DNA of 64,000 bases, taken from contig NZ_CP029797.1 of assembly GCF_003268595.1 (NCBI RefSeq), positions 3,307,501-3,371,500 of the forward strand, in the 5' to 3' direction. The translations under genes and the position numbers were made by a program. This DNA is from Paraliobacillus zengyii. GTDB lineage: Bacteria > Bacillota > Bacilli > Bacillales > Amphibacillaceae. The notes beneath the pieces were generated by a model. It worked only from the letters and a program-made list of their open reading frames with translations. It had not been told where the DNA came from and searched no databases. How positions within the stretch are numbered: position 1 is the stretch's first letter; every line of letters begins with the position of its first letter. Positions 21,322-32,371 of the stretch are shown piece by piece.

Positions 21322-21661
21322 TCGCTTTCCCCCTTAGACGCACTAAAACTTTTCTATAAAGTGACAGTTCAACCCATTTGTTAGCTTCCTAGTACGCTAA
21401 CGTTTCTCTATCTGTTTTGTAGGAAAAGTCTTACGATCAGTTGGCACCATGATAATGTTACTTACCTATCAGAAAGCTTAACCGATTCTTCTCCATAGTA
21501 ATATAGCCAAAAGGTATCATTTTTTTAAGACTAGAGGCTTATTTTCATCCGAGATATCTAGATTAATATCTTAAGTAATATTTTAACTATATAATATTAG
21601 GTACTAAATGGCAAGAAGCAATAAATACTAGTAAATTAACATGTTCAATCCCAATACAATA
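21322..21661. other. 340-base gap, no gene seen
   Basis: The gap holds the upstream region of the hydrolase gene and AT-rich sequence. No ORF with a ribosome binding site and no repeat-family copy was found. Confidence 0.5.
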
Positions 21662-21700
21662 ATCCCATTAGAGCCATAACTATTACGGCTCTAATGGGAT
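21662..21700 (-). terminator. Hairpin after ycgQ, probable operon terminator
   Basis: ATCCCATTAGAGCC (21662-21675) pairs perfectly with GGCTCTAATGGGAT (21687-21700). It lies 17 bases after the stop codon. The tail is only moderately T-rich (TATTGTATT). Confidence 0.7.
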
Positions 21701-21716
21701 CCTTAAGTTTACTTAC

Positions 21717-22646
21717 TTATGTGATTTTTATCGATATTGGATACAAATAAGGTTGGGCTGGTTCTTCTACAACATTCCACTCGGTAACTTTAATTGCTGG
21801 TAATAGATCTCCTTCATATTCCTGCAAATATATCGTACCTACTGCCTCTACCCAAGTATCTTCATCTAATTCTTCTGCTATATCCATTTCGGTCAAGAAT
21901 CCTATAACTCCAGCATCAGCAACACAATGTGTGATAATAAATCTACCGAGAACTAATTGATTTGCCGAAAAACTTTCTTCCTTATAAACAAATCCTGTTA
22001 CCTTTATTTCTTTTCCTACATAATCATCCGCGTTCATATTTATTTCCTGGTGATAAGTGGTATAAAGTTGATCAGTCATCTCGATAGAATTTTGTTCAGA
22101 TAATTCATCTATTAATTTATCATGTTCTTCTTTACTTATCGTATTTGAGTATAGATTAGGGTCTGCAACATTATCATCCTGTTGGACTTCATTGTTTGTG
22201 CTTTCTTCAATACTTTCGGTGTCAGGTTCGGTCGTTTCCTCTTCTATTGCATCATCTACTTTACTCGTATTATTAGATAACGATAGCATTGCACCCTTAT
22301 TTGCTGCTATAGAAGCATCTAAAGTAGACATAGGAAAGAAGAATCCTGTGAACAACGGTAAAATAACAATTGCATACGATATAAACTTTCTAAAAGTAAA
22401 TGGTGCGTTACCATGATCATGGTTATGCCCTTCGTGATCCGCATGGTCATGCTTGTCAGATTCTAGTATTCGTTTAATTTGTGCAATAAATAAAACAAGA
22501 AAAAGAATAGCAGCTGTCTTACTCAGCATCAAATATTTAGGATTAATAAGTTTAAGAATATCTCCCGTATAATGTAAACGTACAATAAAAATAACAAAAA
22601 CGAATAAAATAATCGCTCTACTCACCTGCTGTAAATTAATACGCAT
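21717..22646 (-). CDS. ycgQ: YcgQ-like protein (TIGR03943/DUF1980), partner of the YcgR permease
   Basis: Three to four N-terminal hydrophobic segments (residues ~8-30, ~38-58, ~88-108) surround a His-rich stretch DKHDHADHEGHNHDHGN (~66-82), an obvious metal-binding patch. A long acidic region follows. The C-terminal domain (~195-300: KEIKVTGFVYKEESFSANQLVLGRF, HCVADAGVIG) is the hallmark of the TIGR03943 family. It is always found beside a PF03773-type permease, as here (13-base gap). Biochemical function is unproven. The His patch and the Zur box far upstream point to zinc. Confidence 0.82.
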   Translation of the reverse strand: MRINLQQVSRAIILFVFVIFIVRLHYTGDILKLINPKYLMLSKTAAILFLVLFIAQIKRILESDKHDHADHEGHNHDHGNAPFTFRKFISYAIVILPLFTGFFFPMSTLDASIAANKGAMLSLSNNTSKVDDAIEEETTEPDTESIEESTNNEVQQDDNVADPNLYSNTISKEEHDKLIDELSEQNSIEMTDQLYTTYHQEINMNADDYVGKEIKVTGFVYKEESFSANQLVLGRFIITHCVADAGVIGFLTEMDIAEELDEDTWVEAVGTIYLQEYEGDLLPAIKVTEWNVVEEPAQPYLYPISIKIT

Positions 22647-22659
22647 ATTCTTTTCCTCC

Positions 22660-23673
22660 CTAATAGAAGCCGTCTAGTAACGTTAACACACTAAACACGA
22701 CAATAGTTACAATTAAGACAAATAAAATTACAAATCTCGTTTTGAAAACACTAAGCATCATCATCGTATTCTTTAAATCTGTCATTGGCCCATAAATAAG
22801 AAATCCTAATATTGCAGTTGTTGGAAATACATTACTGAATGAAGCCGCAATAAACGCATCTGCTTCTGAACAGAGTGATAAAAGGTACGCTAATCCCATC
22901 ATGACAGCAGTTGAAGAAACTTGTCCACTTCCAAGTTCAAGTAAAGCTTCAGAAGAGACATACGTTTGAACAAATGCTGCTAATAATGCACCTACAATCA
23001 AATATTTCCCCATATCAAAGAACTCATCAACCGCATGTGTTACAGTATGACCTAGTTTACTGAAAATTGATTGTGAACCATGATTATGGCTAATTGTATG
23101 TGTTTGTTGTACTTCAATTGTATGTTTTAATTGATTAGACTTAAACATTACACTAATAATAATAGAAATAAGTACCGCAATCAAGAAACCTAATATCATC
23201 CTAGATGCCGCAATTTTAAAATCATTTCCAAATGCCATATACGTAGAAAGAATAACCAGTGGATTAATAAGTGGACCAGTTAGTAGAAACCCTATACCAG
23301 CATGTATGGGAACTCCCTTTGCTAGTAATCTACGAACTATTGGAACAATTCCACATTCACAAGCAGGAAAAAGAGCCCCTACGAAACAACTCATAATAAT
23401 TGCTAAAATGGGGTTCTTTGGTATCCAGCGTTTTATATGATCTTCTGTTACAAATATTTGGATAATACCAGCAATTAAAACACCTATTAAGACAAAAGGG
23501 AGTGCTTCAATTAAGATGCTTAAAAAAATTGTATTCATATGAAAAACAGAATTGGGTAACTGGATAATAGATGAAAAGGAATCACCAAAAGACAGTACAT
23601 AAACAGCTAAACCAACCAAAATAACCAACGAAAAATCTATTAGAAAGGAACGAAATCCCCGAATGATTTTCAC
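22660..23673 (-). CDS. ycgR: YcgR-like permease (PF03773 family)
   Basis: An eight- to ten-helix membrane protein. The family motifs are IEALPFVLIGVLIAGIIQIF, GALFPACECGIVPIVRRL (with a CxC) and FLLTGPLINPLVILSTYMAFG; a matching second half has LLSLCSEADAFIAASF. A His-rich loop (HTISHNHG) lies between halves. Related proteins include arsenic-type permeases, but with YcgQ the pair is usually linked to metal homeostasis. The GTG start (23673) lies directly after GGAGG with almost no spacing and no in-frame ATG upstream, so the true start is uncertain. It follows the MATE gene by 99 bases without a recognisable terminator. Confidence 0.82.
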   Translation of the reverse strand: MKIIRGFRSFLIDFSLVILVGLAVYVLSFGDSFSSIIQLPNSVFHMNTIFLSILIEALPFVLIGVLIAGIIQIFVTEDHIKRWIPKNPILAIIMSCFVGALFPACECGIVPIVRRLLAKGVPIHAGIGFLLTGPLINPLVILSTYMAFGNDFKIAASRMILGFLIAVLISIIISVMFKSNQLKHTIEVQQTHTISHNHGSQSIFSKLGHTVTHAVDEFFDMGKYLIVGALLAAFVQTYVSSEALLELGSGQVSSTAVMMGLAYLLSLCSEADAFIAASFSNVFPTTAILGFLIYGPMTDLKNTMMMLSVFKTRFVILFVLIVTIVVFSVLTLLDGFY

Positions 23674-23772
23674 CCTCCATACTCCATGTTTTTTATAGTA
23701 ATCTTTTTATACTATCTCTACCATATACTATTACATAAGCAAATTAAATAGAACAAACTAACTAAAAATTTT

Positions 23773-25116
23773 TTAAACTTTTCCACTTTTAAATAGCGTC
23801 TTGGATAGTCCCGGTAAATATGCATTTAATATAATTGATCGCACAAACGAAAATAAAATAAATCCAAACCACAAGCCATGATTACCGTATAGAGAAATCA
23901 AAAAATGTATCATGATTAAAAATAGTATCATTGCTATAATCAATGAATTTCGTATTGGGACGACTTCCGTAGCTCCAGAAAAAACACCATTTAACAGCAA
24001 TCCCCAGAAACTAACGATTGGGAATAACAAAAGCCAACCTTGATAGTTTGAGATAAGTACTTTTACCTCTTCTATAGAAGTAAAAAGAGAAAACATAATA
24101 TCTGAAGTAAGATAAAGGATACTAGCTAAACAAATTGCAACCACCCCACCCCAAATCGCAGAAAGATTTAAGGTTCGCTTATACATACGCTTATTATCAG
24201 AACCAACAGAGCGACCTGTCAATATACTACTCGCATTCGCAAAGCCATCTAAACAATAAGACATCAGATAATGGACTTGAAAAAGTATAGCGTTAGCAGC
24301 TAAAACAGCTTCGCCCATTTGTGTACCTATAGAAGTGAATAACGTAAAGACAACTAGTAAGCATATCGATCTTATCATTAAATCTCGATTAACTCTCACT
24401 AATTTCACTATACTATTTTTGTCAAAAATTTTTCTGTATTTATGCAAAGAAAACTTAATCATATTTAATTTAACTAAAAAAAATAGACCAATTACCATGA
24501 ATACAATCTCAACTAGCAGCGTTGCTGTTGCTACACCTGTGACAGCAAAACTAAAAACAGTAACAAATATAATGTTTAGTACAATATTTGTTAGATTCAT
24601 TCCAACTTGTAAAAACAGTGTTAATCGGACTTTTGAAGAACCCATTAACCACCCTAATATGACATAATTCATTAAGGCAAATGGCGCACCCCAAATCCGA
24701 ATATTATAATAAATTAAAATTTGCTCTTTTAATTCATTCGTCGGTTGCATGATAAATAGGGCAAAGTCTTTAATTTGAACTTGAAACAAGATAAATAGAC
24801 AACCAATTACAGCTGCAATTATTGCAGGGCGTATAAAAGACATCGCTAAATTATCAGGATCATTCGCTCCATGAGCTTGTGCTGTAAAACCTGATGTACT
24901 TACACGTAGGAATCCTAAACTCCAATAGAGTGTATTGAAAATCACACTTCCTACAGCGACACCTCCTATATAAATAGGATCGGGTAGTTGTCCAACTACT
25001 GCTGTGTCAACTGCCCCTAACAGCGGTGTTGTAATTGTTGCAAGCACTAAGGGAAGAGCTAATTGCAGATAACTTTTATGCGATACAACTGGTAACACAT
25101 TTGATGGGTGATTCAT
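23773..25116 (-). CDS. MATE-family efflux transporter (DinF-like)
   Basis: A 447-residue protein with twelve membrane helices in two halves. The first half has LVLATITTPLLGAVDTAVVGQL and FLRVSTSGFTAQAHGAND, the DinF-branch signature. MATE proteins export organic compounds against H+ or Na+. The gene lies 48 bases after the ABC ATPase gene in the same direction, without a terminator, and so is probably in the Zur-controlled transcript. Export of a metal-binding small molecule would fit this position, but that is a guess. The ribosome binding site (AAGGAG) is 15 bases from the ATG, so translation may be weak. Confidence 0.85.
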   Translation of the reverse strand: MNHPSNVLPVVSHKSYLQLALPLVLATITTPLLGAVDTAVVGQLPDPIYIGGVAVGSVIFNTLYWSLGFLRVSTSGFTAQAHGANDPDNLAMSFIRPAIIAAVIGCLFILFQVQIKDFALFIMQPTNELKEQILIYYNIRIWGAPFALMNYVILGWLMGSSKVRLTLFLQVGMNLTNIVLNIIFVTVFSFAVTGVATATLLVEIVFMVIGLFFLVKLNMIKFSLHKYRKIFDKNSIVKLVRVNRDLMIRSICLLVVFTLFTSIGTQMGEAVLAANAILFQVHYLMSYCLDGFANASSILTGRSVGSDNKRMYKRTLNLSAIWGGVVAICLASILYLTSDIMFSLFTSIEEVKVLISNYQGWLLLFPIVSFWGLLLNGVFSGATEVVPIRNSLIIAMILFLIMIHFLISLYGNHGLWFGFILFSFVRSIILNAYLPGLSKTLFKSGKV

Positions 25117-25164
25117 TCACAGATGTTGATTCTCCTTTTATACGATTCTGTTGTTCACACTAGA

Positions 25165-25929
25165 TCATACAAATAATTCTATTAATTCCTTCGTATAGCT
25201 ATTTCTAGTTTTTGAGAATAAATCCTTTTCCAAAAAACTATCAACAACAGAACCTTCTTTCATTACCATTATATCTTGACTCATTTCAGATACAGCAGCT
25301 AAGTCATGAGAGATAAACAAATAGGCCATTCCTATTTGTTTACGTAAACTAGTAAGTAACTTTAATATAGCTCCTTGCGAAATCACATCAAGACTTGCAG
25401 TTGGTTCATCGAGGATTAGAAGATCCGGTTCTATACTCAAAGCACGTGCTATTGTTACTCTTTGCTTTTGACCGCCACTAAGTTCATGTGGATAACGGTT
25501 AGCTAAGCTAGCAGATAATTCAACCGCTTCAAGCAATTGTTTTATATATTGTTCTTTATTTACATATTTAAAATAAGTTAAATTAAGTTGCTCTGAGAAT
25601 TGCGTATATGGATCAATCATTGATTCCTTTATTTTTAACTTAGGATTAAGTGAAGCTGTAGGATTCTGAAAAACGGCTTGCATATGAATGCGCTGTTTCC
25701 TAAACTTCCGTTCGTCTAAGCCTTGTAATTCTACCCCATTAAGAACAATACTTCCACTATCAATTCGTTCAATCCCTAATAAACATCTGGCTAATGTACT
25801 TTTACCTGATCCACTCTCCCCAACTAAACCAAAGCACTTCCCCTTTTCAATTTCTACATTTACATCGTTTAGAATAACATTATCTTTACCATATGACTTA
25901 AAAATAGATTGCGCTTGTAGTAATGCCAT
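25165..25929 (-). CDS. Nickel/oligopeptide-type ABC transporter ATPase (second, OppF/NikE-like)
   Basis: Cytoplasmic ATPase driving import through the two permeases of this operon. Walker A GESGSGKST (~37-45), signature LSGGQKQR (~155), Walker B LLILDEPTASLD, switch His in FISHDLAAV. It is 254 residues and lacks the C-terminal oligopeptide-ABC extension of true OppF, as is usual for NikE/CntF types. It begins 3 bases after the first ATPase stop codon. Confidence 0.88.
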   Translation of the reverse strand: MALLQAQSIFKSYGKDNVILNDVNVEIEKGKCFGLVGESGSGKSTLARCLLGIERIDSGSIVLNGVELQGLDERKFRKQRIHMQAVFQNPTASLNPKLKIKESMIDPYTQFSEQLNLTYFKYVNKEQYIKQLLEAVELSASLANRYPHELSGGQKQRVTIARALSIEPDLLILDEPTASLDVISQGAILKLLTSLRKQIGMAYLFISHDLAAVSEMSQDIMVMKEGSVVDSFLEKDLFSKTRNSYTKELIELFV

Positions 25930-25932
25930 TAC

Positions 25933-26721
25933 TTACTTCACCTCTTCAAAACTATGATTATTCAACTTAGGCGCCGCAGCAATTAGTTTTTTTGTATAAC
26001 TATGCTGTGGGTTAGAAATAATCTTTTGTTTTTTACCGATTTCTGTAATTTCCCCGTCTTTCATCACAGCGATATGATCAGCATAATTTCTTACGTGACG
26101 CCAATCATGCGTTATAAATAAAATGGTGCATTTTGTTTCTTTCTGTAATTTGGTTAGTAATCCTAAAATTTTATAGCATGTAACACTATCCAATGCTGTT
26201 GTGGCTTCATCTGCTATTAGAAGTTTGGGTTTTAGAAGAAGTGCTAATGCAATCGAAACCCGTTGTAACTGTCCCCCACTAAGTTGAAAAGGGTAACGTA
26301 CATAGAGCGCTTCATCTAGTTCAACAGAATGAAGTGCTTTTATTGTTTCGTCTCTTCTCTTCTTCTTTGAAAAGTTAGTATGTCTCTTAAAAGATTCTTC
26401 GAAATGTTTACCTATCGTTATAAAGGGGGTAAATGATCCCTGATAATCCTGAAAAATATAGGAGATTTCCTTTCCCCTAATTTTTTGCATTCCTTTTTTA
26501 GACATTGTCAAAATATCATGATTTTCAAAAAGTATCTTTCCACTTAACTTGAAGTTAGGTGCAGCTAGTCGACCAATCGCAGAAGCTGTAACACTTTTCC
26601 CACTTCCGCTCTGTCCCACAAGGGCAAACCACTCTCCTTTTTTAATTTCAAAAGAAATATTATCAATAATCGTTTCATTGTTTTTATAAACAGATAATTG
26701 TTCAATAGCTAATAAAGACAT
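25933..26721 (-). CDS. Nickel/oligopeptide-type ABC transporter ATPase (first, OppD/NikD-like)
   Basis: Partner ATPase of the importer. Walker A GQSGSGKSV (~37-45), signature LSGGQLQR, Walker B LLIADEATTALD and FITHDWRHV for the switch His. The 262-residue length and Q-loop SYIFQDYQGSF fit NikD/CntD-type subunits. It overlaps nothing: 3 bases separate it from the permease before and from the second ATPase after, which indicates a tight operon. Confidence 0.88.
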   Translation of the reverse strand: MSLLAIEQLSVYKNNETIIDNISFEIKKGEWFALVGQSGSGKSVTASAIGRLAAPNFKLSGKILFENHDILTMSKKGMQKIRGKEISYIFQDYQGSFTPFITIGKHFEESFKRHTNFSKKKRRDETIKALHSVELDEALYVRYPFQLSGGQLQRVSIALALLLKPKLLIADEATTALDSVTCYKILGLLTKLQKETKCTILFITHDWRHVRNYADHIAVMKDGEITEIGKKQKIISNPQHSYTKKLIAAAPKLNNHSFEEVK

Positions 26722-26724
26722 CTA

Positions 26725-27564
26725 CTAAGCCTCCTTTTTCACATCAAAACGATCTCTTAGATAATCCCCACAAAGATTTGATACTAAAACTACACTAACG
26801 ATTGCTAGACCAGGATAAATCATTAACTCTGGTCTTGATTGAAAATATGGTCTAGAATCGTTTAACATCGCTCCCCATTCTGGTGATGGCGGTTGTGCAC
26901 CAAGTCCTATGTAAGATAAAGATGATATTAATAAAATTATTTTCCCTAAATCAAGACTTGCTAGCACTAAGACGTTTCCAATTACGTGCGGTAAAATATG
27001 TTTAATCATTATTTGCCAAGGCTTCATTCCATTTATTCTAGCTATATCTACATACTCTCTTTTACGTTCCGTCATTACTGTACTTCGAACTAATCGTGCA
27101 TAATTAACCCATTTAACCAATACAATCGCAAACAATAAGTTCCCTATTCCTGCTCCAAGTAATCCACTCAAAACAATCGCAACTACAGTGTCAGGAAATG
27201 CTAGGAATCCATCTGCAACACGCATAAAAATACGATCAATTAATCCTCCCTTAAAACCTGCAAAAACACCAAATGGAACACCAATTATAAGCGCTACAAT
27301 AAGCGCCAAAACACTGTAACCAACCGTAAACTTACCACCAAGTATTATTCTAGTAAGTACATCTCGTCCTAAATGATCTGTCCCTAGTGGGTGTTCTAGG
27401 CTCGTACCTAGTAATCTATTTGAAACATCTGTAAGATTAGGATCATATTGAAGATATAGGAACGTATAAAGAACTACTACTAATAGCAGAACAGCGAATA
27501 TAACAGCATATATTTTACTAGTATTTTTCTTCTTCACAGGTGTATGATCAGTTAAAAATGCCAT
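26725..27564 (-). CDS. Nickel/oligopeptide-type ABC transporter permease (NikC/OppC-like)
   Basis: An inner-membrane permease with about six helices. An N-terminal helix (residues ~17-40) precedes GTSLEHPLGTDHLGRDVLTRIILGG, the standard OppC/NikC start of the transport domain. The EAA loop is YVDIARINGMKPWQIMIKHILPH. The frame opens at a TTG (27567), but ATG 27564 shares a base with the TGA of the preceding permease gene (TGATG), so it is preferred. Confidence 0.9.
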   Translation of the reverse strand: MAFLTDHTPVKKKNTSKIYAVIFAVLLLVVVLYTFLYLQYDPNLTDVSNRLLGTSLEHPLGTDHLGRDVLTRIILGGKFTVGYSVLALIVALIIGVPFGVFAGFKGGLIDRIFMRVADGFLAFPDTVVAIVLSGLLGAGIGNLLFAIVLVKWVNYARLVRSTVMTERKREYVDIARINGMKPWQIMIKHILPHVIGNVLVLASLDLGKIILLISSLSYIGLGAQPPSPEWGAMLNDSRPYFQSRPELMIYPGLAIVSVVLVSNLCGDYLRDRFDVKKEA

Positions 27565-28508
27565 CAATTTGTCTCCTTTTCTCTTAGTCTAGCTTCTGGA
27601 TTTAACAGATAATACGATAAATCCACTAATGTGTTAACTGAGAAGACAATGATCGCCATAATCAATATATAACCTTGAATAATTGGGTAATCTCGCTGTT
27701 TTATTGAATCAACTACTAACTTACCAATTCCAGGATATGCAAAGAGCACTTCAACCACAACAACCCCGCCTATTAAGCTACCAATACTTACGCCAAAAAC
27801 AGTTATTACAGGAGGAAGCGCGGAACGAAAAGCATGAAAAAAGAAAATTCGAAATGAAGATAATCCTCTTGCTCGTGCAGCCTTAATAAAATCTTGGTTT
27901 AATGACTCCAGTAAACTGGAGCGTAGTAAACGTACATACACACTTGAGATTGCCAGCCCTAAAGTTATAGATGGTAGAAGTAAGGATAAAAATCCATCAC
28001 GACCCATTGTAGGAAAAAAGCCCATTTCAACAGCTAATAGATCAATTAAAAGAAGACCTAACCAAAAACTCGGGATTGCAGCCCCGACCACAGATAGAGC
28101 TCTACTAAACTGATCAATCCAACTGTTTCGATATATTGCAGCTAGTGATCCTAACGGAATAGCTATCAAAAGCATAACAATGGTAGATCCTATCGTTAAT
28201 TCTAACGTTGCAGGAACTGCCCCTAGAATAAGTTCCATCACAGGTTGACCAGTAACAAAAGAATCACCAAGATCAAATTGAATAAATCTCCATAACCAGG
28301 TCACGTATTGAATGAGAAGAGGTTCATTAAAACCCATCTCTTCTCGCAATGATTCTATTTGATTCTGTGTAACAGCTAGCTCATCCGCATTTAATATTGT
28401 CATTATTGGGTCTCCTGGTGCTAATCGAATAAATAGGAAACTAATAAAGGTAATAATAAGGACAAAAATAAGAACCTCTATTAATCGTCTACTTATAATT
28501 CGAAACAT
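27564..28508 (-). CDS. Nickel/oligopeptide-type ABC transporter permease (NikB/OppB-like)
   Basis: First permease of the importer, with six or so helices and the characteristic N-terminus MFRIISRRLIEVLIFVLIITFISFLFIRLAPGDP. The EAA loop is DFIKAARARGLSSFRIFFFHAFRSALPPVITVFG. The ATG is joined to the stop codon of the substrate-binding protein gene as TAATG, so it is translationally coupled. It pairs with the NikC-like permease to make the membrane channel. Confidence 0.9.
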   Translation of the reverse strand: MFRIISRRLIEVLIFVLIITFISFLFIRLAPGDPIMTILNADELAVTQNQIESLREEMGFNEPLLIQYVTWLWRFIQFDLGDSFVTGQPVMELILGAVPATLELTIGSTIVMLLIAIPLGSLAAIYRNSWIDQFSRALSVVGAAIPSFWLGLLLIDLLAVEMGFFPTMGRDGFLSLLLPSITLGLAISSVYVRLLRSSLLESLNQDFIKAARARGLSSFRIFFFHAFRSALPPVITVFGVSIGSLIGGVVVVEVLFAYPGIGKLVVDSIKQRDYPIIQGYILIMAIIVFSVNTLVDLSYYLLNPEARLREKETN

Positions 28509-30040
28509 TACTTCACATCCAATTTGTTTGTAATCATATAATATTCACTTCTAGTAGTAACCCAGTTTTCTACTTTATCTCCGTTATATGCGACAAGTGT
28601 TGCTGGATGCAAAATAAAAGCATTAATCATTTCCTCGTCAACATACATCGCTGCACGTTCAGCTAATTCTGCTCTAACGTCCGTATCAACCGTTCGATTC
28701 AATTCATCTATGATAGCTGTTAATTCGGGTTCTTCTGTTCCACTAAAGTTTAATGCTCCAGTTGGATGATAGGTAGCATTCAAATAATAACCAGCATCTC
28801 CACGCGGTGCAGTTAAATTACTATATGTCGCTAGATCCCAATCACGGTTGGTCGCCATATATTCTTCAGGATTATCAATTTGCTGTATATCAATTTCTAT
28901 ACCAATTTGACGCGCATCTGATTGAAACACTTGTGCAATTAATGGTAAATCAGCCCGTGCACTATATGTTAATAAAGTAAAACTTAGTTGTTTTCCATCT
29001 TTTTGCATCAGACCATCTTCTAAAACATATCCTGCCTTTTCAAGATACTCCGTGGCCACTTCTGAACCACTTAGCCTTTCTTCATATTCCGGTGCAAATG
29101 CGAGTGAGGGAAGAAAAGGTCCTACTGCCACCTTTCCATAACCAAGTAATATTGAATCGACAATTTCTTCTCGATTAATTAATGCATCCACAGCTTTTCT
29201 TACATTTACGTCTTGTAAACTTTCTTTTTCCATATTCATCGTCATCTGATGTACACGAAACGTATCTGTCGCTTCCACAACAATACCTTCAAGCTCCTGT
29301 AAAGATTCTACACTCTCAACCTCAGGACGAAATACAATATCAGCTTCTCCTGCTTCTAAAGCAAGCGACCGTGCATTGGCATCTTCATTAAACGAGAATT
29401 TCACTTTATCTAAATTCGATGGTCCGTCCCAATATCCATCAAATCTCTCTAATTCCAAACCACTTCCTGGTGTAAATGAAGTTAATTTAAATGGACCAGT
29501 TCCAACAGGTTTAGTAACAAAATCTGTTTCCGTTACGTCTATGATCGATGTATTTGGATTCACTAGTTCAGATATAAATTCTGGGAAAGGCTGATCTGTT
29601 TTAACTTTCAAAGTTAACCCATCTGCTTCTATCGATTCAATATGTAAGGCATTTTGCATTGCAACACTTTCCTTCAACATACGTTCTAACGAAGCTTTTA
29701 CAGCTTCTGCGTCCATTACATTCCCATTATGAAATGTAATGTTGTCTCTTAACTCTATTGTCCAATTTTGTCCATCTTCACTATTCCAATCCTCTGCCAA
29801 CCATGGCTCTACCGACAAATTCTCTTCATCTAATCGCATTAAGGTTTCCGTTAAACCAGCTCGCAAAGGTACATAACTTGAATCCACATGTGGATCTAAT
29901 GAGCTTGTTGAGAAATTATATAAAAAGTGAATTTCCTTTGTTTCGTCATCCGTTTCCTCTGAAGACGAAGTTGAACAGGCTGTCAAAAAAATAATTAGCG
30001 ATATTAATATTAAATAAATAACATAAGTATGTTTATTCAA
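28508..30040 (-). CDS. Substrate-binding lipoprotein of the nickel/oligopeptide-type ABC importer
   Basis: First gene of the Zur-box operon. The lipoprotein signal has a hydrophobic run to LTACSTSS, with the lipid-modified Cys at residue ~22. The mature part is a family 5 extracellular solute-binding protein: LVNPNTSIIDV, TKPVGTGPFKLTSFTPGSGLELERFDGYW and LNRTVDTDVRAELAERAAMYVDEE. Relatives (NikA, CntA) bind Ni or metal-metallophore complexes, whereas OppA binds peptides. The ligand cannot be read from sequence, but zinc or a zinc chelate is suggested by the promoter. TTG 30040 is taken as start: AGGGGGAT lies at good spacing and no ATG lies before the signal peptide. Confidence 0.88.
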   Translation of the reverse strand: MNKHTYVIYLILISLIIFLTACSTSSSEETDDETKEIHFLYNFSTSSLDPHVDSSYVPLRAGLTETLMRLDEENLSVEPWLAEDWNSEDGQNWTIELRDNITFHNGNVMDAEAVKASLERMLKESVAMQNALHIESIEADGLTLKVKTDQPFPEFISELVNPNTSIIDVTETDFVTKPVGTGPFKLTSFTPGSGLELERFDGYWDGPSNLDKVKFSFNEDANARSLALEAGEADIVFRPEVESVESLQELEGIVVEATDTFRVHQMTMNMEKESLQDVNVRKAVDALINREEIVDSILLGYGKVAVGPFLPSLAFAPEYEERLSGSEVATEYLEKAGYVLEDGLMQKDGKQLSFTLLTYSARADLPLIAQVFQSDARQIGIEIDIQQIDNPEEYMATNRDWDLATYSNLTAPRGDAGYYLNATYHPTGALNFSGTEEPELTAIIDELNRTVDTDVRAELAERAAMYVDEEMINAFILHPATLVAYNGDKVENWVTTRSEYYMITNKLDVK

Positions 30041-30060
30041 AATAAATCCCCCTCATTAAT

Positions 30061-30114
30061 TAAATCGTAATCATTACGATTAAGATTATATATTATAGAG
30101 GTAAAGGTTGTCAA
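30061..30114 (-). promoter_or_regulatory. Sigma-A promoter with overlapping Zur box
   Basis: On the minus strand TTGACA (30114-30109) and TATAAT (30090-30085) are 18 bases apart. Over the expected start point lies AATCGTAATCATTACGATT (30063-30081), a perfect 9-1-9 palindrome identical to the core of the B. subtilis Zur consensus as known. Zur with zinc should block this promoter and zinc shortage should open it. Confidence 0.9.
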
Positions 30115-30121
30115 TTCATAT

Positions 30122-30179
30122 TTAAAATAAAAAGAGTCAAGTAACACTCCTTAAATTGGAATGTCTTACTTGACTCTTT
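30122..30179 (-). terminator. Terminator of topB
   Basis: AAAGAGTCAAGTAA (30131-30144) pairs with TTACTTGACTCTTT (30166-30179), extended by a second inner stem. On the minus strand it ends in TTTATTTTAA, 17 bases after the topB stop codon. Confidence 0.9.
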
Positions 30180-30196
30180 CAAACCGACACAAGAAA

Positions 30197-32371
30197 TTAT
30201 TTTTTCCATTTCGCTAACGCTTCTGCTAGCGCTGGGTTTGTGAATTCCTCTTTTTCTTGTTTTACGTATTTTTTTACATCTTGTTTAGATGCTTTCTTCT
30301 GGCTGTTTTGTTCTTTACGCTTTTGAAATGCAGATAGCTTTTCACGATGACCACAGCTACATGTAAATGTTTGTCTTTCACCTTCACCACGCATTTCCAA
30401 TTTCTTATGACAGTTTGGACAACGTGCGTTAGTTTTCCGGGCAATATTCTTTTTCTCACCACAAGATCGATCCTGACAAACAAGCATTCTGCCATTCTTG
30501 CCATTTATCTCTAACATTAACTTACCGCAAGTCGGACATTTGGTTCCAGTAATATTATCATGCTTGTAATTTTCTTTACTATTTTTAATTTCTCGTACAA
30601 CTATTGTCGCATAGGTTTTCATTTCTTTAATGAACGCTTCTTTTTTCAAATCCCCATTAGCAATCTTAGTTAACTTCTGCTCCCATTCAGCCGTTAAGAT
30701 TGGAGATTGTAAATCTGCTGGTACAATATCAAGTAATTGACGTCCTTTTGACGTTGTAAATAAGGACTTTCCCTTACTTTCAATATAATTTGTATGGAAA
30801 AGCTTTTCAATGATGTCTGCTCGCGTTGCTACTGTTCCTAGTCCACCTGTTTGATGCATCGTTTGTACCAATTGTTTATTTTGTTGATCCATATACTTTA
30901 CTGGATTCTCCATTGCCTCTAATAAAGTACCTTCAGTAAAACGTGCTGGAGGTTGTGTTTTTCCGTTTGTCATACGAACGGTAACATCCTGTAAGACATC
31001 ACCTTTTGTAAGATTAGGTAGCGTCTGTTCATCCGCTGTTTCACGGTCATCATGGAAACGATTTTGATAAATTTCTTTCCAACCATTATCTTTTACTTTC
31101 TTTCCTTTAGCGGAAAAGCGTTCTCCCCCAAATGTAACCTCAACGGTTGTCTGTTCATATACATATGGTTTTGATAACACAGCTAAGAAACGTTTCACTA
31201 CAAGATCATAAATTTTTCGCTCTTTATCATCTAAATCTGCCAATATTACCCCTTGTTCAGTTGGAATAATCGCATGGTGATCAGAAACTTTTTTATCATC
31301 AACAAAAGATTTATTCGGATTGATACCCTGCTTTAAAATAGTTGCTGCTACTTTCGCATACTGATCTACGCCACAAGCATCGACACGGTCTTTTAACGTA
31401 GGTACAATATCTGCTGATATAAAGCGTGAATCTGTTCGTGGGTATGTCAATACTTTATGCTGCTCATAGAGTTTTTGCATGATTGATAATGTCTGTTTAC
31501 CAGAAAAACCAAATGCCTTATTTGCTTCCTGCTGTAAGCTTCCCAAATCATATAAAGGTGGCGCAAAGCTTTTTTTCTCTTTTTTATCTATTTCTGTAAT
31601 TGTTGCTTGCTTGGCTTTTAGGTTTGTCGCTAGTTTTTCTGCCTTTTCTTTATCAAAAATGCGTGTATCATTTTTTTCATTACGCCATGTTAATGTAAAG
31701 CCTTGCTTCGTTTTAGCCTCAAGTCCGTAGAAATCTTTCGGTTGAAACTTTTTAATCTCTTCTTCACGTTTAGCAATCATCGCTAGCGTTGGCGTTTGGA
31801 CACGTCCACTTGATAATTGCGCATTAAATTTTGTTGTTAGAGCTCGGGTTGCATTTAAACCGACATACCAATCCGCTTCCGAACGTGCAACAGCTGACTG
31901 AAATAGGTTCTGATAATTCTTGCCAGGCTTTAAGTTAGTAAAGCCATCTCGAATTGCTTTATCTGTGACAGAAGAAATCCACAGGCGTTTTACTGGTTTG
32001 TTAACACGTGCTTTCTCTATAATCCAACCAGCTACAAGTTCACCTTCACGTCCTGCATCCGTTGCGATCACAATATCTGACACATCTTTTCGTTGCATTT
32101 GTGCTTTCACTGTTTGGAACTGCTTACCGGTTTTCTTCATAACTACTAACTTTAAATCAGCGGGCAGCATTGGTAAATCTTCTAACTTCCACGTTTTAAA
32201 TTTCTCATCATATGTTTCAGGGTCTGCCAAGGTTACTAAATGACCTAGAGCCCAAGTTACAATATATTTCGAACCTTCAAAATAGCCATTTGCTTTTTTG
32301 GTACAATTTAATACACGTGCAATGTCACGACCAACTGAAGGTTTTTCTGCTAATACAACTGTTTTACTCAT
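30197..32371 (-). CDS. topB: DNA topoisomerase III
   Basis: A type IA topoisomerase that relaxes and decatenates DNA, often working with RecQ. The TOPRIM domain is at the N-terminus (MSKTVVLAEKPSVGRDIA, IATDAGREGELV with the Mg-binding D-x-D region). The catalytic Tyr is in VLTYPRTDSRFIS (~residue 310). SSGRVQTPTL is the core signature. The C-terminal part has Cys clusters (CPTCGKLMLEI, CQDRSCGEKK, CPNCHKK, CSCGH), i.e. zinc ribbons. The 724-residue length agrees with B. subtilis TopB. Monocistronic. Confidence 0.95.
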   Translation of the reverse strand: MSKTVVLAEKPSVGRDIARVLNCTKKANGYFEGSKYIVTWALGHLVTLADPETYDEKFKTWKLEDLPMLPADLKLVVMKKTGKQFQTVKAQMQRKDVSDIVIATDAGREGELVAGWIIEKARVNKPVKRLWISSVTDKAIRDGFTNLKPGKNYQNLFQSAVARSEADWYVGLNATRALTTKFNAQLSSGRVQTPTLAMIAKREEEIKKFQPKDFYGLEAKTKQGFTLTWRNEKNDTRIFDKEKAEKLATNLKAKQATITEIDKKEKKSFAPPLYDLGSLQQEANKAFGFSGKQTLSIMQKLYEQHKVLTYPRTDSRFISADIVPTLKDRVDACGVDQYAKVAATILKQGINPNKSFVDDKKVSDHHAIIPTEQGVILADLDDKERKIYDLVVKRFLAVLSKPYVYEQTTVEVTFGGERFSAKGKKVKDNGWKEIYQNRFHDDRETADEQTLPNLTKGDVLQDVTVRMTNGKTQPPARFTEGTLLEAMENPVKYMDQQNKQLVQTMHQTGGLGTVATRADIIEKLFHTNYIESKGKSLFTTSKGRQLLDIVPADLQSPILTAEWEQKLTKIANGDLKKEAFIKEMKTYATIVVREIKNSKENYKHDNITGTKCPTCGKLMLEINGKNGRMLVCQDRSCGEKKNIARKTNARCPNCHKKLEMRGEGERQTFTCSCGHREKLSAFQKRKEQNSQKKASKQDVKKYVKQEKEEFTNPALAEALAKWKK

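Follow-up and report, generated by a model that had tools for sequence, protein, structure and literature searches.

A predicted Zur-repressed operon of Paraliobacillus zengyii joining a Nik-type importer, a MATE transporter and YcgRQ

A window of 64,000 nucleotides of Paraliobacillus zengyii (assembly GCF_003268595.1, contig NZ_CP029797.1, positions 3,307,501 to 3,371,500 of the forward strand; "the window" means this whole stretch) carries on its minus strand, between positions 21,717 and 30,114, eight co-directional genes behind one promoter and one Zur-type box. Judged from their sequences, these genes probably form a Zur-repressed zinc-scavenging operon, which would combine a zinc-chelate importer with a ligand-moving transporter of the MATE family and the YcgR/YcgQ membrane proteins. 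When zinc is short, Zur would leave the box and a single eight-gene transcript would be made. The substrate-binding protein (SBP), a lipoprotein of the Opp5A/NikA type, would together with NikBCDE import zinc in complex with a small ligand, not as the free ion, as the family of the importer suggests. The MATE protein would be part of the shuttle and move the ligand outward, and YcgR/YcgQ may be another membrane system linked to Zur, which became part of this operon. The features are as follows, in descending order of position.

30085..30114, minus strand: TTGACA-18-TATAAT promoter, the sole 12/12 match within 21500-30400
30063..30081, no strand assigned: perfect Zur-type box that covers the likely transcription start, 3 bases downstream of the -10 element
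28508..30040, minus strand: substrate-binding lipoprotein (SBP), Opp5A/NikA family (NF045468, 730 bits, cut-off 600)
27564..28508, minus strand: NikB-like permease (Opp2B; NF045470, above cut-off)
26725..27564, minus strand: NikC-like permease (Opp2C; NF045474, above cut-off)
25933..26721, minus strand: NikD/CntD/CntF-like ATPase, under the cut-offs of the best 25 of 189 NCBIfam families
25165..25929, minus strand: NikE-like ATPase, under the cut-offs of the best 25 of 188 NCBIfam families
23773..25116, minus strand: MATE family transporter (TIGR00797, 252 bits, cut-off 147)
22660..23673, minus strand: YcgR-like permease (PF03773, ArsP_1)
21717..22646, minus strand: YcgQ-like partner (TIGR03943/DUF1980) with a His-rich stretch
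21661..21701, minus strand: intrinsic terminator-like hairpin of 19 pairs, from the terminator scan

A first-pass annotation, made from the bare sequence, had described eight co-directional genes of this spacing behind this promoter, and both the minus-strand reading and the list of open reading frames (ORFs) agree with it. The genes of the ATP-binding cassette (ABC) part overlap by one base or stand 3 bases apart and are followed by intergenic gaps of 48, 99 and 13 bases, the last of which, between YcgR and YcgQ, is absent from that account. The coordinates of NikC are given from an ATG; the listed ORF extends to 27567 and starts one codon earlier at TTG. The promoter scan returned 32 promoter-like sites overall versus 37.6 in shuffles. 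The annotation had further seen no clear terminator before about 21662, which holds: of five terminator-like hairpins (shuffles gave 3.9), that of 19 pairs at 21701-21661 is the longest, the remaining four, two on each strand, fall within coding sequence, and the 48- and 99-base gaps gave no hairpin. One box and promoter, followed by eight minus-strand genes with no terminator-like hairpin in these gaps, fit the layout of a single operon, and we infer that it is Zur-repressed and read as one transcript. The His-rich stretch attributed to YcgQ is present as well (DKHDHADHEGHNHDHG).

The box at 30063-30081, AATCGTAATCATTACGATT, is the perfect 9-1-9 palindrome that had been placed over the start of the promoter. 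With 0 mismatches it is the sole site with at most three mismatches in the window (shuffle mean 0.09; one or more in 8 of 100 shuffles) and the single perfect core in the 3.73-Mb genome, where four sites differ from the pattern by one mismatch. Since the genome-wide search at up to two mismatches gave 28 sites versus 44 for the reversed pattern, weight is given to sites with 0-1 mismatch alone. One of the one-mismatch boxes precedes a ZnuA-family gene by 44 bases, and another precedes, by 72 bases, a ribosomal S14 gene, after which a second ZnuA-family gene follows; the Zur targets of B. subtilis include znuA and rpsNB (PMC5007448). The genome encodes three paralogues of the FUR family, one of which (L340) comes after a piece of an ABC ATPase and an ABC-3 permease, in the order znuC-znuB-zur that is known for zur. 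This zur-like gene behind znu-like genes and the one-mismatch boxes at two ZnuA loci bear out the identification of the palindrome as a Zur-type site. Two kinds of candidate regulon members were set aside: the one-mismatch box at 2497597, which lies within a threonyl-tRNA-synthetase-like ORF, and the two-mismatch boxes, 16 of 23 of which fall inside ORFs while the reversed pattern is commoner, and one of which neighbours the one-mismatch box of the S14 gene. The remaining one-mismatch site is found at the start of a gene for a GNAT acetyltransferase (L082:6849-7403; 2036888).

The first-pass annotation had proposed to survey gene order and Zur boxes in relatives, and such a survey finds the importer-plus-MATE unit to be recurrent and Zur-like boxes to be above background. 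The loci had two sources, 80 named YcgR loci and overlapping sets of 159, 156, 397 and 398 searched genomes, and were annotated with the window's own proteins and with marker proteins taken from the loci. The 113 SBP genes counted were grouped by identity: group A is at least 50% identical to the SBP of the window, group C scores best to the SBP of L241, and group B comprises the remainder. In a tree of 90 of the 113 SBPs (23 near-copies omitted), groups A and B are mixed at a few places, and group C forms one side of a branch. Within -300 to +45 of the SBP start, a Zur-like box with at most two mismatches is present in 51/56 loci of group A, the window included (43/56 at no more than one mismatch), and in 31/47 loci of group B (20/47), compared with a background of 26 among 1150 other ORFs (15 at no more than one mismatch); these loci are non-independent and many come from one genus. 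The boxes of group A are spread over 9 of its 11 families, and the count of group B falls to 26/47 when boxes in front of a directly preceding EamA gene are disallowed. Mechanically assigned start codons miss some boxes, such as a one-mismatch box at L239 that was seen and yet counted as lacking; SBP ORFs of up to 350 amino acids were omitted from the counts, and L308 (G657) yielded no SBP ORF. Because 82 of 103 loci of groups A and B have a Zur-like box upstream, much of the Opp5A/NikA-type family that NCBI models name as nickel uptake may in fact serve zinc.

Group C (L202, L241, L311, L313, L314, L321, L323, L326, L327 and L335) has Zur-like boxes in 0/10 loci. Its SBP, Nik and MATE genes stand behind Fur-like boxes, which are found with one mismatch in 6/10 loci and with at most two in 10/10 (background 21/1026), and in 3/103 loci of groups A and B. 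All ten SBPs of group C exceed the nickel_nikA cut-off (TIGR02294) and reach 457-477 bits with the CntA model, the cut-off of which is 800. The presence of MATE in 10/10 of these loci is no independent test of its link to the importer, since eight of them, as well as L202 and L241, were fetched via a MATE match.

The SBP and both permeases of the operon lie above the curated cut-offs of the Opp5A/NikA-type importer, and by sequence the SBP has its closest relative of known structure in PDB 3t66 (779.5 bits), which is named nickel-binding. With the CntA model the SBP obtains 131 bits, far from the cut-off of 800, and is thus not of the CntA type. The operon might accordingly encode a nickel importer with Zur control being merely incidental: its SBP, NikB and NikC are filed as nickel transport in NCBIfam, and the solved-structure relatives are called nickel-binding. 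We regard this as very improbable, given that Zur-like boxes recur across relatives and that the nickel role is weakened by the lack of a urease match in the genome itself. Urease is likewise missing from the ten g36 species and present in 11 of 50 searched genomes of groups A and B; no search for other nickel enzymes was made. For the zinc-chelate importer of the first-pass annotation, the preference of zinc over nickel is strengthened by the Zur-type boxes and the missing urease, and ligand-based uptake is consistent with the family.

The MATE protein is above the TIGR00797 cut-off, and its best equivalog, DinF, is below its own. In an order-level search with matches in 75 genomes, from which 41 MATE loci were fetched, MATE adjoins Nik genes in 36/41 loci, or in 31/36 after removal of L207-L211, which had been picked for having both genes. 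Uninterrupted same-strand adjacency of MATE to the SBP unit was counted in 22/56 loci of group A, 29/47 of group B and 10/10 of group C, a count that misses at least L222 and L283. Within the family of P. zengyii the SBP occurs in 13/156 genomes, all 13 of which are among the 14/159 with MATE. Solitary MATE genes also carry boxes: three of five at the order level (L213, L312 and L318, with 0-1 mismatch; none at L319 and L328) and, within the family of P. zengyii, that of G032 with one mismatch and those of g36 with a two-mismatch box just upstream in 9/10 species. From the linkage to Nik genes and the boxes of solitary MATE genes, it follows that MATE likely shares a role with the importer, a prediction that would provide a MATE subfamily with a function.

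The YcgR loci surveyed are the best 80 of 295, two of which lack a usable ORF. Among the other 78, a Zur-like box with 0-1 mismatch is present within 1.6 kb upstream in 31, compared with 14/610 background windows. In L023, L045, L046 and L050, YcgRQ has Nik genes and MATE no more than a few kb away, and in most of the best 80 of 295 the Nik/MATE set was not seen within 10 kb on either side. At L213, MATE-YcgR-YcgQ follow a perfect Zur-type core. Zinc export by YcgRQ seems unlikely, because genes linked to Zur should be at work when zinc is scarce. An unlikely alternative is that MATE, as a pump for drugs or toxins, and YcgRQ are unrelated passengers of the same promoter. Such an explanation would suit the 48- and 99-base gaps, the sub-threshold DinF match and the finding that almost all of the 80 loci have YcgRQ away from Nik genes. 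It is at odds with the adjacency of MATE to Nik genes, the boxes that solitary MATE genes own, the arrangement at L213 and the enrichment of Zur-like boxes at YcgR loci.

Searched with PF10100 and PF03059, the genome of P. zengyii (G000) gave no match to either. The earlier claim that no cntKLM-like biosynthesis genes are present thus extends from the window to the whole genome, as far as these two models can see. With neither a NAS nor a CntM match, the CntL-CntM pair of the Cnt opine zincophore system was not found in this genome, and an outward role of MATE is here left without a known cargo because no ligand-making gene was found. Across 52 genomes, PF10100 matched in 12 at E <= 0.001 (11 above cut-off) and PF03059 in 17 (15 above cut-off); 14 control genomes gave 0 and 1 matches, respectively.

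In relatives, a NAS-family gene stands in the unit or divergently beside it at seven loci, all above the PF03059 cut-off: after MATE in L210, L222, L239, L244 and L315, before the SBP in L208 and divergent from the SBP in L309. MATE is present in 7/7 of them, CntM or EamA in the unit in 0/7, and a genome-wide search with PF10100, which covered five of these genomes (G160, G327, G446, G631 and G660), found no match. CntL-CntM-EamA occur at eight loci (L219, L220, L224, L231, L237, L240, L243 and L334), two of which have MATE. The two sets differ in MATE (7/7 vs 2/8, p 0.007) and in EamA (0/7 vs 8/8, p 0.0002) by Fisher tests that ignore kinship; 7/8 CntM loci belong to one branch of the SBP tree, and some NAS loci were found via the MATE search. 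When two of the NAS-family proteins were set against solved structures, archaeal thermonicotianamine synthase and CntL both proved to be distant relatives, and hence the product of these enzymes cannot be named. The earlier view of MATE as a chelator exporter gains from its position next to NAS-family genes in relatives; export as such is a prediction. In relatives that make a nicotianamine-like product, MATE would be its exporter. In P. zengyii, it might export a ligand of unrecognised synthesis, perhaps a common metabolite like histidine, or else might be the step that returns the emptied ligand.

Among the 50 searched genomes of groups A and B, 33 are without a NAS/CntL match (weak ones counted as present) or CntM above cut-off, including G677 with a weak PF10100 match. 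Of the genomes with MATE in the unit, 14/20 lack NAS/CntL or CntM above the cut-offs, with weak matches in G062 (NAS) and G677 (PF10100); solitary MATE genes were excluded here, and G631 was assigned as MATE-bearing. These genomes bear on a serious alternative, to which we give somewhat less than an even chance, namely that the importer pirates zinc complexes of foreign ligands, such as plant nicotianamine or the opines of neighbours, and that MATE is a recycler or the leftover of a lost synthesis-and-export pathway. The missing synthesis matches in P. zengyii and in the 33 genomes are compatible with piracy, as is the place of its SBP in a 30-row tree branch together with G446 and G485, where NAS comes after MATE. 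That a useless leftover should be kept as often as in 14 of 20 MATE-bearing genomes would be odd.

Tentatively, the zinc-scavenging operon may belong to a broader set of MATE-dependent zinc shuttles without an opine dehydrogenase. In some, MATE would export the direct product of a NAS-family enzyme; in many, that of P. zengyii included, an ordinary metabolite would be the ligand, and exporter and importer alone would be complete. The same layout would operate under Fur in the sister group C for another metal. This possibility suggests zinc chelators whose synthesis needs no CntM, and it poses a pointed question, that of the cargo of an exporter without a synthase. Such chelators lie outside the reach of a zincophore survey which began from CntM and itself states that only CntM-homologue-dependent zincophores were found (PMC7438024).

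Several observations weigh against a Zur-repressed zinc-scavenging unit, next to the nickel names and the missing synthesis genes. Zur-like boxes are lacking in 16/47 loci of group B and 5/56 of group A, and about 50 of the 78 YcgR loci have none of the boxes scored there. In the one genome sampled from the same genus, neither SBP nor MATE gave a match at the thresholds used. The ycgRQ genes of B. subtilis have been described under the control of an extracytoplasmic function (ECF) sigma factor (PMC5584981), and in a Bacillus study the Zur boxes of an ArsP_1-type permease operon lie upstream of -35, which was interpreted there as pointing to positive control (PMC6336718).

The operon shares features with several known systems. 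The staphylopine system of Staphylococcus aureus (cntKLM, cntABCDF, cntE) also pairs an Opp/Nik-type ABC importer for a metal chelate, expressed under zinc limitation, with a dedicated exporter (PMC5666155). Its exporter is of the MFS type (PMC7438024) rather than MATE, it has synthesis genes of which none was found here, and the present SBP remains far below the CntA cut-off. In fusobacterial zincophore clusters, MatE is likewise paired with a metal-chelate importer, yet these clusters have CntM and a FecCD-type importer (PMC7438024). The Opp5A/NikA-Opp2 nickel importers (NF045468, NF045470, NF045474; PDB 3t66 and SaNikA, 4ofj) agree in sequence family and gene set; they differ from the present operon in its Zur-type box, the inclusion of MATE and YcgRQ and the lack of a urease match in the genome. 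The ArsP_1-type operon of Bacillus, bound by Zur, shows that a permease of the YcgR family can have Zur boxes, but there it forms a separate operon with boxes upstream of -35; among the six Zur-boxed promoters named in the available part of that study, there is no Nik or MATE gene (PMC6336718). The suggestion that the combination was new needs to be narrowed, because the Nik-MATE layout is widespread in the sampled genomes, and because the Zur-bound ArsP_1-type operon (PMC6336718) and MatE in fusobacterial clusters (PMC7438024) mean that it is not isolated. For the exact combination, no published description was recognised among the matches listed, which cover a small part of the subscription literature.

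Some loci display further variants. At L208:9993-14596, a NAS-family gene adjoins a gene for an IucA/IucC-type synthetase, with Zur-like boxes, upstream of SBP-NikBCDE-MATE; this set is possibly a hybrid zinc-chelator cluster. At L209, L211, L322, L329, L332, L333 and L337, a gene for an EamA-type exporter lies beside SBP-NikBCDE-MATE, with no CntL or CntM among the neighbours, giving two exporters and no synthase in view. L045:5322-20627 and L050 are dense clusters with several Zur-like boxes that include CobW/COG0523-type genes, YcgRQ and a GNAT gene placed between NikE and MATE; of the three CobW-type genes scanned at L045, two have a cobW domain and one CobW_C alone. The boxed GNAT of P. 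zengyii (2036888), considered as a candidate enzyme of ligand synthesis, is 19% identical to the one between NikE and MATE in L045 (E 5e-7). Finally, upstream of the operon, a perfect 14-base inverted repeat (30179-30166 with 30144-30131), followed by T-rich DNA and missed by the terminator scanner, probably ends the upstream topoisomerase-like gene.

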